Shown: piece by piece, positions 7,786 through 15,069 of the stretch
Layout of the letters: each line of letters starts with the position of its first letter
Position numbering within the stretch: the first letter of the stretch is position 1
NCBI GenBank assembly: GCA_013215055.1
Contig: JABSRQ010000007.1
Location: forward strand, 186,001-250,000
Length of the DNA: 64,000 bases
Source: Pseudomonadales bacterium
Lineage (GTDB): Bacteria > Pseudomonadota > Gammaproteobacteria > Pseudomonadales > DT-91
Direction of reading: 5' to 3'
Program-made: the position numbers and the translations under genes
The notes under the pieces: generated by a model
What the model was told of the DNA's origin: nothing
Database searches by the model: none
What the model saw: the letters and a program-made list of their open reading frames with translations, nothing else

Positions 7786-9705
7786 ATGAGAAAAAAATTC
7801 AAACATCCCTTAGCCTTGGCCGTTTCTCTGCCCTTGCTTTGTGCCTCAAATAGCCTGTTAGCCAGTGATGCTAAAGTAAGCGCTGCGGCTAAAGCATATT
7901 CACCCTATGCAAATACAACTCAGGCCAACAATGTTTATTGGGGTGATTCCCACTTACACACAGGTTTGTCATTAGATGCGGGCTTGTTTGGTAACATCTT
8001 AGAACCGGATGATGCTTATCGTTTTGCGCGTGGCGAGCAGATTACCGCATCTTCCGGTGTGCCCGTTAAACTAGCACGCCCACTGGACTGGATGGTGGTA
8101 GCGGATCATTCCGATTTGATGGGTATTGCTACTGATATTAAAACCGGAACACCCAATATTCTGGCCGATAAAAAAGGTAAAGAGTGGCACGAAGGATTTA
8201 AAAAAGGCGGCAGTGCGGCAGCTGAAGCGGCTTTTGATCTGATTAGTAATTTTTCACAAATGACGCTACCAGAGCAGTTGGTTACTGATTATAGCCCGGG
8301 TTCTAAAGTGTTTGGTCGTGTTTGGAAGGATATTGTTGATTCTGCAGAAAAACATAATGAGCCAGGCTTGTTTACCGCTTTTATTGGTTACGAATGGACT
8401 TCCGTACCTAAGGGTTTCAACCTGCACCGTAATGTTATTTTCCGTGACAATGCTGATAAAGCCTTACAAGTGGAGCCTTTAACGACTCAGCCACCCTTGG
8501 GCTCTACCGATCCTCTAGTGCTTTATAAATGGTTGGCAGATTACGAAAAGAAAACTGGCGGCCGTGTTTTTGCTTTTGCGCATAACGGTAACCTCTCTAA
8601 TGGCTGGATGTTCCCAACGACTGATACTTATGCCGGCGGTGTAGTGGATGAAAACTACGTCAAGCTTCGTGCTAAGTGGGAGCCACATTATGAAATCACG
8701 CAGATAAAAGGCGATGGTGAAGCTCACCCTTATTTATCGCCGGATGATGAATTTGCCGACTATGAAACCTGGGCTGTGGGTAACCTCGATATCTCTGAGC
8801 TGAAAAAACCTGAAATGTTTAAAGGTGAATATGCACGTGAAGCCTTTAAGCAGGGTTTAATTCTTGAACAAAAATGGGGTTATAACCCTTATAAATTTGG
8901 TGTAGGTGGCGCAACCGATAGCCACACGGCATTAGCCACAGCAGATGAAGATAACTTTTTTGGTAAATCTACTAGCGTAGAACCTTCGGAAACTAGAATA
9001 AGCCACCCTTTCATAAAAGCTGAAAAAGGTGAATACCCAGGTTATTCGTTAGTTGCTTCTGGCTACACCGGTATTTGGGCGCATGAAAATACACGTGCGG
9101 CGTTGTTTGATGCGATGGAGCGTCGTGAGACTTACGGTACCACCGGGCCAAGAATGACGGTACGCTTTTTTGGTGGCTGGAACTTTGAAGAGAGAGACGT
9201 ATTTGCCAACAACTCTGCATCTATCGGTTACGCCAAAGGTGTGCCCATGGGTGGCGATTTAAAGAAAGCCGATGCTAAAAAAGCACCTACTTTTATGGTT
9301 CAGGCCATGCGTGACCCGCAAAGCGCCAACCTGGACCGTGTGCAAATCATTAAGGGCTGGATAGATAAAAAAGGCAAAGTACATGAAAAAGTGTATGACG
9401 TTGCCGTATCCGATGGCCGTAAAATTAAAAATGGCCGATGTAAAAAAGCAGTGGGTAATACCGTTGATCTTGAAACCGCCACCTGGAGCAATAGCATTGG
9501 TGATGCTCAGCTAGCCACGGTTTGGACTGACCCTGACTTTGATTCTAAAGAATCAGCGTTCTATTATGTACGTGTCTTAGAGATTCCAACACCACGCTGG
9601 GTTGTTTACGACAAAGTAAGAATGGGCGCCAAAATCCCTAAAGAAGCTCAGCTGATTGCTCAAGAGCGTGCATACACCTCACCCATTTGGTATTCAGCTA
9701 AATAA
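7786..9705 (+). CDS. DUF3604 domain-containing exported protein
   Basis: A 639-residue protein of the DUF3604 family, whose members have no established general reaction. A Sec signal peptide (residues 1-26, cleavage after SNSLLA) places it in the periplasm or outside. Motifs that look like a metal-dependent PHP-type hydrolase site are GDSHLHTG (53-60), VVADHSD (104-110), [12 protein letters not shown] in the middle and GGATDSHTA later; the histidines and aspartates suggest a metal centre, but this is inference. The ATG at 7786 is chosen because AAAAGGA lies 7 bases upstream; a TTG directly before it would extend the frame by one codon. It is the first gene of a cassette with a membrane parvulin and a HupE/UreJ protein, but a terminator hairpin lies between it and them. 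Confidence 0.88.
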
Positions 9706-9730
9706 GCAACGTTAAATAAAAAAGTTTAGA

Positions 9731-9759
9731 AAAAAACCCGCTTATTAGCGGGTTTTTTT
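9731..9759 (+). terminator. rho-independent terminator after the DUF3604 gene
   Basis: Stem AAACCCGCT (9734-9742), loop TATT, stem AGCGGGTTT (9747-9755), then an uninterrupted T run to 9759. A classic intrinsic terminator. It sits before the parvulin gene, so downstream genes are expressed either by partial read-through or from their own promoter. Confidence 0.9.
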
Positions 9760-9797
9760 ATCGTTTATCATTACCTGATTTATTTTAAGAGCAAGCC

Positions 9798-10649
9798 ATG
9801 TTTAAAAGACTTTTAACCGAACCCCTGGTGCATTTTCTGTTCATCGCCATACTGTTTTTTGTGGTTTACGATGTTTTAAATCCCAATGAGTTTACTGCTC
9901 AAACGGTTACGGTAAGTGAAGGAAGAACCGAGCTTATAAAAAATCAATTTGTTGATGCATGGAAAAGAGAACCACGTAAAAACGAAATGCATAATGCCAT
10001 TCAAAGTTATGCTTTAAATGAAATCTATTTACGTGAGGCAAAAGCCTTAGGTTTTGATTCTGGCGATAAAGTAATAAACAGACGTTTGCGCCAAAAAATG
10101 ACATATATGCTGGAGGATATGGCGTCGGGGAAAGAAGCAACAGAGCAGGAATTAAAAACCTACTATCAACACAACCCTGAAAAATATCGTTTAGAGGTGA
10201 AATATAGCTTTACTCAAGTGTATATCTCTATTGATAGGCCAACAAAAGAGCTGGAACAATTATTAACGTTACAGAGACAGAATATAGCGAAGGGTTTAGC
10301 CCCTGAAGGTGATGGTAGTTTATTAGCCGGTGAGATTTCATTACAAACAGAGCCGCAACTCGTAAGACGTTTTGGTAAAGGTTTTGTGTCGCAGCTTAAA
10401 AACCAGCCCTTGCAACAATGGTCTGGGCCGATTAAATCAGGCTTGGGTCGACATTTTGTTTTTTTAAAGCAACGTAGCCAGAGTGATTTAAAGCCGTTTG
10501 ACCAGCTAAGTAAAAAAGTAAAAGCAAAGATTCTTGAGGATTGGCAATACCAAAATATTAAAGATTATAAAAAACAATATGAAGAGCAGTTGTTAACGCT
10601 CTATCACGTTGAAGTATTCACACCATCGAAAGGTGGATATATAAAATGA
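9798..10649 (+). CDS. membrane-anchored peptidylprolyl isomerase of the PpiC/parvulin type
   Basis: A 283-residue protein with an N-terminal hydrophobic segment (about 9-27, rich in F, I and V) that should anchor it in the inner membrane with the rest in the periplasm. Residues 35-115 are charged and helical, like the SurA/PpiD-type N-domain, and about 115-225 fit a divergent parvulin domain, ending with a GRHFVFLKQR strand. It would help fold exported proteins. Its stop overlaps the start of the HupE/UreJ gene by four bases (ATGA), showing translational coupling. Context suggests it serves the neighbouring DUF3604 or HupE-like protein rather than being a general chaperone. The classical parvulin motifs are weak here, so isomerase activity is not certain. 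Confidence 0.8.
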   Translation: MFKRLLTEPLVHFLFIAILFFVVYDVLNPNEFTAQTVTVSEGRTELIKNQFVDAWKREPRKNEMHNAIQSYALNEIYLREAKALGFDSGDKVINRRLRQKMTYMLEDMASGKEATEQELKTYYQHNPEKYRLEVKYSFTQVYISIDRPTKELEQLLTLQRQNIAKGLAPEGDGSLLAGEISLQTEPQLVRRFGKGFVSQLKNQPLQQWSGPIKSGLGRHFVFLKQRSQSDLKPFDQLSKKVKAKILEDWQYQNIKDYKKQYEEQLLTLYHVEVFTPSKGGYIK

Positions 10650-11626
10650 AAAACATGCTTTTTATTGTTTTAGCTTTTTTTAGTCAAATGGCAAAAACTG
10701 ATGATATGCGCCCGGCATCCCTGACAATCACAGCGCAAACTTCATCGAGTTACAATGTTGTGTGGAAAGAGCCGGTGAAACCAGACAAGCGCCCAGCGAT
10801 GCGTGTGGTTTTTGATGACAGCGTAAAGGCAACTTCCCCCAAACGGTTTCAGAAATCCAATAATAGCTATATAGCCTATTGGAGCATAAAGCGTGAACAG
10901 GGACTTGAAGGTTTAAACATCCACATTGACGGATTACTGGGCGCATCAGGTGATGTGTTATTGCGCATTATTGAAGATGAAAATAAAACCATCACGGCGG
11001 TATTAAATACAGAACACACTCGCTATGTCGTGCCTTCTATTAAAAAAGTTATGCCTGAAGATACCGCTGTGGTTTATACCGTTTTAGGCATTGAACATAT
11101 TCTTGTGGGTTTTGACCATTTATTGTTTGTCGCTTGCCTGGTTTTTATTTCAGGCACACGCAAAAAGTTGTTGATGACAATAACGGGCTTTACCCTCGCT
11201 CATTCCATCACGCTTATGCTTTCTGCCAAGGGTTTAGTCAATATTCCTATTCAACCGGTAGAGGCGGTTATCGCGTTAAGCATTATATTTTTAGCCTGGG
11301 AAATTGCAAAAAATAATAAAAACAGTTTAAGTTTGAAATATCCGGTGTTGGTGTCGTCTAGTTTTGGATTGTTACACGGTTTTGGTTTCGCTGCGGTATT
11401 GGCTGAAATTGGTCTACCTGAAACAGAAAAGTTATTAGCTTTATTGTGTTTTAATATTGGTGTTGAAATAGGTCAGCTGGCATTTGTTGCTGCGTTGTTT
11501 ATATTGTTTGTATTAGCAGCTAAATTGTATACAGCGTTAACCCTAGAGAAACTACGATTTCCTGTTAGCTATTTTTGTGGCTCACTTGCAACTATCTGGA
11601 TGTTACAACGCCTGGCCACTTTTTAG
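10646..11626 (+). CDS. HupE/UreJ family membrane protein
   Basis: A 326-residue protein with a signal peptide-like start, a periplasmic beta-rich domain (about 20-130) and six or so membrane helices in the C-terminal 190 residues. The signature residues of the family are present: H151 and D157/H158 in GIEHILVGFDHLLF, H186 in FTLAHSIT, H244 in LLHGFGFA, and E274 in FNIGVEIGQ. HupE and UreJ proteins are nickel (or other metal) permeases, but this large N-domain subfamily is not tied to hydrogenase or urease and none is nearby. A link to metal supply for the DUF3604 protein is an inference from gene order. Translation is coupled to the parvulin by an ATGA overlap. Confidence 0.85.
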   Translation: MKNMLFIVLAFFSQMAKTDDMRPASLTITAQTSSSYNVVWKEPVKPDKRPAMRVVFDDSVKATSPKRFQKSNNSYIAYWSIKREQGLEGLNIHIDGLLGASGDVLLRIIEDENKTITAVLNTEHTRYVVPSIKKVMPEDTAVVYTVLGIEHILVGFDHLLFVACLVFISGTRKKLLMTITGFTLAHSITLMLSAKGLVNIPIQPVEAVIALSIIFLAWEIAKNNKNSLSLKYPVLVSSSFGLLHGFGFAAVLAEIGLPETEKLLALLCFNIGVEIGQLAFVAALFILFVLAAKLYTALTLEKLRFPVSYFCGSLATIWMLQRLATF

Positions 11627-12382: not shown

Positions 12383-14419
12383 TTAGAAACTGAATTTTAA
12401 CGTCAACAACGCTTTCCGGCCGATCTGGGTATAAATGGGATATTCATAATGTTTTTCATCCAATAGATTAAGCACCGATAATTTCATAAAAAACTGACGA
12501 TTTATACGTTTTGAAATGGCGATATCCAGGCTGGTATAGCTGGCAACCTCAATGCCCGGAACTTCCAGGTAAGTGACTTCTGAGACATAACGTGCACGGA
12601 TATCAAAATCAAAATAGCGGTAATACTGTATGCCGGTGCTGACTTTATTTTTCGGCAGGTTTTTAAGGTCATGACCCTGGCCATCTTCTGCCCATTGATA
12701 GGTGTAATTTAAAAAGAACCGGGTGTTATCTGACCACTGGCTTTTACTTTCCAGCTCCAACCCTTGATAGACCACCTCCTCATCGATAGTAGTCGCCCCT
12801 AAATTGGGAATTGCAGTGGTTCCCACCGTCACGGTGTCATAAACAATCAGGCTAATAATATCGCTGACTTTATTATAATAATATTCTGTCGTTATCATGG
12901 TTTGTGGTGAATACTGCCAGCGTAGCCCAATCTCATGGGCCAACATTTTTTCAGATTCTCGCTGCCCGCCAGCAATAAACTCGCCGGTATTATTGGTTGT
13001 TGCCGTGATCGTGCTGCCTTTAAACCAGCCCGTATCCGGTGGACCAAATTCGGTATAATAAAAACTTTCATCAAAATTCTGACGTCGGAACGATGTCGTG
13101 CTTGCCAAACGTAAAACCAACTTATTGGGTATTAAAAAGACATTAGCAACCACTCTAGGTGTCCATTCCTGATCAATATCATTCCATTGATCATAACGCC
13201 CGCCCAGCGTCAGCTGTAGGCGATCATTGAAGGCTAAAAACTGATCCTGGATATACACGGCATAGAGTGTATCTTTTTCATCATAAACATAGGGGCCGGA
13301 TAAATTATTAATCTCTCTGCTGGCATGCAGAGCCACATAATTTAACCCCAGCATCCATTGATGGCCTTCAAGCCGGGCAATATTGTATTGCAGGTCTACA
13401 TCCAGGCCATCACCATTTCTCAGTTGGTATTTAAAAACATATTGATTATCTTCAAAACGTTCGTTGCGCTGGCGTAGTGTTCTATAACCTATACGCAAAT
13501 TGATATTATCTGTATTGCTTAAATCCTGATTAAACCAATGGCTAAAAAACAGACTCTCTTTCTCGGAACGGTCCAACGAATAATCACCTGGGCTGGCATT
13601 ATATCCTTCTCGGCCTGAGGTCATGCCGCCCGATAATTGATAGCTGAAATCCTGTCGGTTATAATCGCCCCTAAAGGTTAAACCTTTAATTTTTGCACTA
13701 TCTTTGATGTGCCAGTTGCCAACCTCTGCAGCCTCTTTATCACCTTCTTTTTCCGTTTGCACATAACTTAACGTGGCCGCCAAGACAAAGTTATTAGATA
13801 TCTGCTGAGAAAGGTGTAAGGCATTTTGGTGGGTGCCTGCCTCACCGTAGGTCGACGACAATTTTACGGCATCCCTTTGAGCGGCGGCCAGGGTATATAT
13901 TTGAATCACACCCACCTGTGATGTCGCGGTATAAACACCTGTGCCTACACCACGTAATATTTCTATGCGCTCAATATCATCCAGGCTTATCGGTAATGTG
14001 GGCCACTGCATGCCCATATAGGGCACAACATTCACCACTTGGCCATCAATCATCACCAACATTTTTGAGGTCTCATCTCGGGCTCGGCCTCGGGCTGCCA
14101 CATCCATATCGGAATAGGTTTTGGTAAACGCATCGATACCCACCACATATTGCAGCAATTCAGGAATCGTATGCGCCGGGGATCTGAGTATTTCACCTCT
14201 ATGAATAATGGAGATAGCTGACGGCGCATGGAAAATATTTTGCTCAAAACGTGACGCCGATCGAACCTGGATATTAAAAATATCATGTAAAGGTAAATCA
14301 AAATAATCGATGGCACGTTTATTTATCGGCTGATCGACCGGCATAGTCATCACATCTTCCGAGCTTAAACAGAGGCTGCAATATAGCGTTAAAAACAACA
14401 AGGGCATACGAAGGTTCAT
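12383..14419 (-). CDS. TonB-dependent outer membrane receptor
   Basis: A 678-residue receptor with a signal peptide (about 1-19), a plug domain (about 65-175, containing LVMIDGQVVN and IERIEILRGVGTGVY) and a 22-strand-type barrel ending with ALLTLKFSF, whose terminal phenylalanine is the usual barrel-assembly signal. It takes up a ligand at the outer membrane with energy from TonB; the ligand is not evident, and no siderophore genes are nearby. Its start overlaps the end of the upstream YfiR-like gene by four bases, so the two are coupled. This pairing recurs in marine gammaproteobacteria as far as I know, and suggests regulated or sensory uptake. Confidence 0.92.
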   Translation of the reverse strand: MNLRMPLLFLTLYCSLCLSSEDVMTMPVDQPINKRAIDYFDLPLHDIFNIQVRSASRFEQNIFHAPSAISIIHRGEILRSPAHTIPELLQYVVGIDAFTKTYSDMDVAARGRARDETSKMLVMIDGQVVNVVPYMGMQWPTLPISLDDIERIEILRGVGTGVYTATSQVGVIQIYTLAAAQRDAVKLSSTYGEAGTHQNALHLSQQISNNFVLAATLSYVQTEKEGDKEAAEVGNWHIKDSAKIKGLTFRGDYNRQDFSYQLSGGMTSGREGYNASPGDYSLDRSEKESLFFSHWFNQDLSNTDNINLRIGYRTLRQRNERFEDNQYVFKYQLRNGDGLDVDLQYNIARLEGHQWMLGLNYVALHASREINNLSGPYVYDEKDTLYAVYIQDQFLAFNDRLQLTLGGRYDQWNDIDQEWTPRVVANVFLIPNKLVLRLASTTSFRRQNFDESFYYTEFGPPDTGWFKGSTITATTNNTGEFIAGGQRESEKMLAHEIGLRWQYSPQTMITTEYYYNKVSDIISLIVYDTVTVGTTAIPNLGATTIDEEVVYQGLELESKSQWSDNTRFFLNYTYQWAEDGQGHDLKNLPKNKVSTGIQYYRYFDFDIRARYVSEVTYLEVPGIEVASYTSLDIAISKRINRQFFMKLSVLNLLDEKHYEYPIYTQIGRKALLTLKFSF

Positions 14420-15069
14420 TCAACAACCTCCATCTCATCAATAATGGTTGATAACCCGAGTATCTTGGCGCTGAGCCGGATATTTTCTTGTTTCAGTACG
14501 GCAATATTAATAATTAATTTAAGTCTTTGATTGTCATTGGCTAACTCCACCATGCCGCCGCTGCTGGAAAAGCCTTTATTTGCTGAAACCGTTAATATTT
14601 TTTTCCCGAATAAATGGGAAAGGTATTCACGTAACTTGTCGTGCTTATACTTGCCTATATATAAAACATGGCAGTCATCCGTTAGCCTGCCCTCTTTAAT
14701 CGCGATACTTCTAAGCCTAAAGCCATTCAGTTTTTTGTTTTCTAAAGTCTGCAGTGCATGCTTGAATTTAGCACTGGTATTAAGATGACAAATATTAATA
14801 TATTCATCGCTACCGGGCTCAAGAGGTAAATATGAAAAACGAATAATATTAATGAGATAAAGAACTTTCAGATTATGCTCATCCAGCTCGATATTAAGTG
14901 CATGGGTGGGTGTAGATAGCAGCGTCATGCAACTGAGCACGGCATAAAAAACCAGGCTGTAAACCGGCTTGTCATGCATGCCCTTTTTAATCGGTAGAAT
15001 GCACAAGGCAGATAGTGAAGCCCTTAATAAAGAAAATGCATAAATGACTGCAGACATGTCAACCTTCAA
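14416..15069 (-). CDS. YfiR family protein (DUF4154)
   Basis: A 217-residue periplasmic protein. The C-terminal signature of the family is clear: FSSSGGMVELANDNQRLKL followed by a helix with a conserved asparagine-to-isoleucine stretch and an ILGLSTII ending. In Pseudomonas YfiR is a periplasmic repressor of the diguanylate cyclase YfiN; here no cyclase is adjacent and the partner is a TonB receptor, so the role may be different. The N-terminus contains two hydrophobic stretches, and translation may in fact start at M31 (14979), which would give a normal signal peptide ending THA. The start is therefore uncertain. First gene of the two-gene unit. Confidence 0.85.
   Translation of the reverse strand: MKVDMSAVIYAFSLLRASLSALCILPIKKGMHDKPVYSLVFYAVLSCMTLLSTPTHALNIELDEHNLKVLYLINIIRFSYLPLEPGSDEYINICHLNTSAKFKHALQTLENKKLNGFRLRSIAIKEGRLTDDCHVLYIGKYKHDKLREYLSHLFGKKILTVSANKGFSSSGGMVELANDNQRLKLIINIAVLKQENIRLSAKILGLSTIIDEMEVVE

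Follow-up and report, generated by a model that had tools for sequence, protein, structure and literature searches.

A parvulin-HupE gene pair as a candidate maturation module for exported DUF3604 enzymes

Why should the gene for an exported enzyme stand beside genes for a membrane-anchored parvulin and a HupE/UreJ-type metal permease? These three genes occupy positions 7786 to 11626 of the stretch of Pseudomonadales DNA analysed here (hereafter the window: 64,000 nucleotides of contig JABSRQ010000007.1), where a preliminary description, made from the sequence alone, had read them as a periplasmic metalloenzyme with its own folding factor and metal supply. All three belong to the families it named and lie on the forward strand: the DUF3604 gene (7786-9705, with its ATG at 7786; 639 amino acids; PF12228, 816 bits against a cut-off of 20.4), the parvulin-like gene (9798-10649; 283 amino acids; Rotamase_2, 41.2 bits against 27) and the HupE_UreJ_2 permease-like gene (10646-11626; 326 amino acids; PF13795, 147.4 bits against 24.5). 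Metal choice and folding of exported metalloenzymes in Gram-negative bacteria are poorly known. We propose, with reasonable though not high confidence, that the parvulin and HupE form a dedicated membrane-bound module that would fold and metalate Sec-exported DUF3604 enzymes of the PHP fold, a reading drawn from comparative genomics and structural models.

A gene pair that accompanies DUF3604

The association of DUF3604, parvulin and HupE is not due to chance. We surveyed the 80 nearest DUF3604 loci in public genomes together with the loci of the window's own genome, and found that, after DUF3604 itself, the commonest neighbours are the parvulin (41 loci) and HupE (36 loci, plus five with long Bacteroidota forms). 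By label, these loci come from Gammaproteobacteria, Alphaproteobacteria, Verrucomicrobia, Bacteroidota and other groups, though metagenome-assembled genomes (MAGs) may in some cases be mislabelled. In a sample of 114 gammaproteobacterial genomes, drawn at roughly one genome per family, five of the ten with DUF3604 carry the parvulin subfamily and none of the 104 others does (Fisher p = 2e-6); each copy shares its neighbourhood with a HupE, and the remaining parvulin matches are mostly PpiD-sized. Among 144 alphaproteobacterial genomes, 13 of the 14 with a full-length DUF3604 carry the parvulin, against 0 of 130 others at comparable score (Fisher p = 1e-17); HupE adjoins it in 13/13, and a DUF3604 gene lies within about 2 kb in 12 of these 13. 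Since the genomes are not fully independent, these p values serve as guides only. The parvulin is thus a specific marker of DUF3604 genomes, but HupE is not: PF13795 is broad (34/114 gammaproteobacterial and 40/144 alphaproteobacterial genomes) and also stands beside SoxB and TPR-like or His-rich proteins, which rules out HupE as a specific mark of DUF3604.

What becomes of DUF3604 genes that stand alone? The preliminary description had held that its proposal would fall if DUF3604 usually occurred without the other two genes. We therefore turn to 28 genomes picked because a sampled DUF3604 gene had no adjoining parvulin or HupE: every one of them encodes both elsewhere, nearly every parvulin there adjoins a HupE, and many of the pairs are free-standing two-gene units, so that genome-wide the feared separation does not hold. 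Copy numbers differ strongly as well. Three Halieaceae-like marine genomes (G114, G115 and G116) hold 16, 25 and 31 DUF3604 matches, which are profile matches and include some fragments; the genome with 25 has one parvulin-HupE pair, and 16-31 matches may be accompanied by no more than one or a few pairs. Because the pair is present with unlinked or numerous DUF3604 genes, the helper unit is the pair rather than the triad, and it can act in trans. The earlier idea is thus largely borne out, except that a single enzyme with helpers of its own gives way to a helper pair common to many enzymes.

The layout of the genes agrees with this division. The end of the parvulin gene and the start of the HupE gene overlap by four nucleotides (ATGA), in line with the translational coupling named in the preliminary description, and the same overlap occurs in 23 of the 38 parvulin-HupE pairs measured, relatives and window together. 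Between DUF3604 and parvulin lies a terminator-like hairpin (9730-9759, forward strand; a 13-pair stem followed by a T tract), so the triad of the window is not one simple operon; that reading is ruled out, and order and spacing vary in other loci. Terminator-like signals are found in 7/28 gaps of the DUF3604-parvulin type versus 8/190 coding windows. In a second cluster of the same assembly (locus L008), two DUF3604 genes lie tightly packed with a HupE and a parvulin on one strand, in an order that differs from that of the window, DUF3604-HupE-DUF3604-parvulin; a further HupE gene lies at the end of a short contig. Immediately before the L008 cluster stand genes for two Omp85-superfamily outer membrane proteins (L008:12224-14950).

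The association also recurs at greater distance. A distant second clade of DUF3604 proteins, of about 750-780 amino acids, is accompanied in a comparable layout by parvulin and HupE genes of its own (L113, L115, L130, L131, L133 and L134, the parvulin of L113 having been recognized by eye), and the association is therefore repeated in an independent DUF3604 branch. Profile alignment did not place the PHP ligands of this clade, whose motifs were read by eye only.

A fourth component of the system is possible. An exported protein of about 330-380 amino acids, with cysteine motifs after the signal peptide (CAVC, CQIC, CAFHG) and without a Pfam match, adjoins the parvulin-HupE pair and recurs in Rhodobacteraceae and Verrucomicrobia (L024:2538-3455, L025:11841-12995, L055:8712-9794, L140:8856-9842, L150:3907-5031, L154, L155 and L168). 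In the window itself, the other genes between 2.5 and 17 kb encode a hybrid sensor kinase, a TonB receptor, a YfiR-like protein and, judged by eye, an aminotransferase-like protein; the TonB-dependent receptor (12383-15069, reverse strand), next to the triad, is TOL_0244-like and has a YfiR-like partner of TOL_0243 type with a 4-nt overlap, both scoring below the NCBIfam cut-offs.

The three proteins and their metal contexts

The DUF3604 protein of the window matches PF12228 over profile positions 2-590 of 591 and divides into a Sec-type signal peptide (residues ~1-28), a PHP-fold core (~45-450) and a C-terminal beta-sandwich (~456-639). Its AlphaFold2 model (predicted local distance difference test, pLDDT, 85.9) finds its best PHP matches in 3e38 (Z 16.3; 233 aligned residues, 3.4 A; Foldseek E 2e-6) and 2anu (Z 16.1; 214 residues, 3.8 A; E 4e-4), followed by PsfC, RNase AM and the PHP domain of DNA polymerase III, and no sequence relation to PDB entries was found. 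The histidine-rich, PHP-like motifs that first drew attention to the protein hold up well: nine candidate metal ligands (H56, H58, D64, H108, E203, H214, H266, D378 and H380), assigned by the PHP motif series HxH, D, H, E, H, H, DxH and not from a metal-bound structure, are invariant in 112/112 main-clade proteins. Only 2 of 108 N-termini look like signals for twin-arginine translocation (Tat), which rules out that route for the family; nearly all are Sec-type signal peptides. Sequence and model together argue strongly for a Sec-exported PHP-fold metallohydrolase, with a metal site that is probably multinuclear.

The surroundings of lone DUF3604 genes did not point consistently to any substrate, and the family is hardly mentioned in the open-access literature searched, which gave a single hit. 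A sulfatase-like gene, of arylsulfatase type by eye, recurs next to DUF3604 at L010, L027, L064, L114, L117 and L134.

The parvulin consists of a SurA/PrsA-like domain preceded by a single N-terminal transmembrane helix that bears a conserved EPLxHF motif, with PEB4/CBF2, SurA, HP0175 and PrsA as its relatives in the PDB. It matches the domain profile of PpiC-type parvulins and retains one of the two catalytic-site histidines, the last (H219, 26/26); the position of the first is a glutamine (Q140) in all 26. Such an altered site does not exclude isomerase activity, and since the first histidine is missing the protein may be more holdase than isomerase, possibly only a holder.

HupE joins an outer beta-sandwich (residues ~22-132) to a helical transmembrane domain; the outer domain, called large in the preliminary description, is in fact small, at about 110-115 residues. 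The transmembrane domain carries H-X5-D-H at 151-158 (H151, D157, H158). In the model (pLDDT 85.7) the outer domain matches 8f1b (Z 10.4, 105 aligned residues), 7aly (Z 9.9) and 9gce (Z 8.3), and its top seven structural matches are all ZrgA of V. cholerae, PA4063 of P. aeruginosa or Ang-1, a likeness that is one of single-domain fold only. ZrgA and PA4063 are zinc-binding and Ang-1 copper/nickel-binding periplasmic proteins or domains (PMC9820375, PMC12537917), and the model thus supports a periplasmic metal-binding fold. Across the parvulin-linked group HX5DH is kept in 39/44 HupE proteins, the five exceptions being exactly the Bacteroidota loci. The residue after the signal peptide, whose cleavage site was inferred by eye, is His in 21, Asp in 16 and Glu in one of the 44; the window protein reads DDMRP where relatives carry HxxxP, and so lacks the His that directly follows the signal peptide in Ang-1. 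Its Pfam matches are to HupE_UreJ families only, which places it outside the TerC family. Elsewhere, a single 333-residue frame (G010:C2:46141-46476) gives overlapping matches to HupE and to a fragment of DUF3604, which may be a fusion, a remnant or chance.

Which metal would be involved? The Bacteroidota clusters lacking HX5DH also carry an ATP-binding cassette (ABC) ATPase, a MacB/FtsX-like permease and a ZnuA-type binding protein, and at the gammaproteobacterial locus L110 genes for ZnuA and an ABC-3 permease lie just upstream of the triad. ZrgB, the zinc permease of V. cholerae, has likewise been described as MacB-like (PMC9820375). In these few loci it looks as if one metal-transport part had been replaced by another around the same enzyme.

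A different setting is provided by HupE_UreJ_2 genes without parvulin that adjoin genuine SoxB genes (L106, L122, L123, L127 and L128; TIGR04486, 709-738 bits against 550). These HupE proteins have no HX5DH and are therefore not close copies of those linked to DUF3604. SoxB is a dimanganese enzyme, and the SoxB proteins concerned carry Tat-type signals. Proteins exported by Tat fold before they leave the cytoplasm and have no need of a foldase in the periplasm, whereas Sec substrates need one; a parvulin found only with the Sec-exported enzyme fits this. By analogy the contexts hint variously at zinc (ZrgA, ZnuA), copper or nickel (Ang-1, HupE) and manganese (SoxB). Another group of HupE_UreJ_2 genes pairs with a gene for an exported protein of about 400 amino acids, repeat-like by eye, in Gammaproteobacteria (L101, L102, L107, L124 and L129).

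A possible maturation route and its rivals

How might the parts work together? Once exported by Sec, DUF3604 would have to acquire both its fold and its metal site beyond the cytoplasm. Anchored in the membrane, the parvulin-like protein would hold or fold the emerging apo-enzyme while the outer and transmembrane domains of HupE supply or hand over metal; folding and metalation would then most likely occur on the periplasmic side of the inner membrane. HupE might release metal outward, or might only capture it and pass it on, and a single pair would serve many DUF3604 paralogues in trans. The functional link that the preliminary description had drawn as inference is strengthened by the restriction of the parvulin to DUF3604 genomes, by the predicted PHP fold with its invariant candidate ligands and by the metal-binding fold of HupE. 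More tentatively, and with less confidence than we place in a maturation role as such, the altered parvulin and the anglerase-like HupE may form a membrane metallochaperone complex that metalates a whole family of Sec-exported PHP hydrolases, in some cases 30 members strong, as they fold in the periplasm, which would be an undescribed exoenzyme metalation system of Gram-negative bacteria.

Several points weigh against a maturation module. The whole case is built from comparative evidence and structural prediction; the parvulin has lost its first catalytic histidine; ABC metal genes occur in a minority of clusters only; and DUF3604 occurs without a detected parvulin in the MAGs G009 and G080, which have small contigs, and in the alphaproteobacterium G183. 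Known HupE proteins, moreover, import nickel, a precedent that offers no obvious benefit to a Sec-exported enzyme. It would suit a salvage unit, in which DUF3604 hydrolyses an extracellular compound, HupE imports a needed metal (nickel, zinc or similar) and the parvulin folds only the HupE outer domain or the enzyme, with metal flowing into the cytoplasm. Metal capture and uptake have been proposed for Ang-1 (PMC12537917), and some clusters contain ZnuA-type uptake genes. We nevertheless consider salvage unlikely: the pair occurs in DUF3604 genomes only and is retained where as many as 31 DUF3604 matches are present, which fits a need of the enzymes better than general metal uptake, and many genomes have HupE_UreJ_2 without the parvulin.

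Perhaps metal is not what HupE carries. Its transmembrane domain could transport an ion or small product set free by DUF3604, with the parvulin folding envelope proteins; the metal role of these HupE proteins is itself inferred, and the arylsulfatase-like gene recurs beside some DUF3604 genes. We hold this to be somewhat less probable than salvage. Against it stand the conservation of HX5DH, whose loss coincides with ZnuA-type metal genes, the metal-binding fold of the outer domain and the presence of other HupE_UreJ_2 genes beside a dimanganese enzyme. Mere co-inheritance of a horizontally moved three-gene cassette, whose proteins have no common target, would account for the patchy distribution across several phyla and is the least probable reading, given that the pair persists unlinked from DUF3604 in 28/28 genomes, that gene orders differ inside one genome and that a separate version of the pair goes with the second DUF3604 clade.

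A maturation module for exported DUF3604 enzymes thus remains our preferred reading. With it DUF3604 gains a likely fold, a likely active site and a likely path to maturation, and the parvulin and HupE of the pair gain a probable client; a two-gene module tied to one enzyme family by near-perfect co-occurrence is also testable by one clean deletion.

Comparison with known systems

We found no description of the triad in the open-access literature, most subscription journals lying outside its coverage. Its parts nevertheless resemble several known systems. In hydrogenase and urease clusters, HupE/UreJ proteins have the same PF13795/PF04955 transmembrane domain with HX5DH; here the partner is instead an exported PHP enzyme, and, in line with the preliminary description, which saw no hydrogenase nearby, the window's assembly (84.7% complete) has no NiFe hydrogenase large subunit, urease not having been searched for. 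DUF3604 shares its PHP core and its HxH, DH and DxH motifs with PHP phosphoesterases (3e38 BVU_3505, 2anu TM0559, PsfC, RNase AM), but is exported, reaches about 640 residues with insertions and a C-terminal beta-sandwich of its own, and occurs in tens of copies.

Closer parallels concern metal handling. The Zrg zinc ABC system (PMC9820375) shares the fold of ZrgA with the HupE outer domain (Z 10.4), and its ZrgBC part has a counterpart in the ABC ATPase and MacB-like permease of the Bacteroidota clusters; by contrast, the window-type domain forms one protein with HupE, the clusters also encode a parvulin and a PHP enzyme, and the binding protein is ZnuA-type. The 'anglerases' Ang-1 and Ang-2 (PMC12537917) likewise fuse a metal-binding beta-sandwich to a HupE_UreJ_2 permease (9GCE fold match, Z 8.3). 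The main text of that paper names neither DUF3604 nor a peptidyl-prolyl isomerase, the outer domain of the window protein is smaller and has Asp where Ang proteins have an N-terminal His, and by sequence 9GCE matches an Ang-1-type HupE but not the profile of the DUF3604-linked group.

The nearest functional precedent is the TerC family, whose members MeeF and MeeY metalate Sec-exported enzymes in Bacillus subtilis (PMC10550928). The comparison is one of function and not of family membership: TerC proteins belong to an unrelated family and act generally on Mn enzymes, and the abstract of that paper reports no dedicated parvulin partner and no fused outer metal-binding domain. Both systems, if our reading is right, would place an integral membrane metal protein in the service of exoenzyme metalation.

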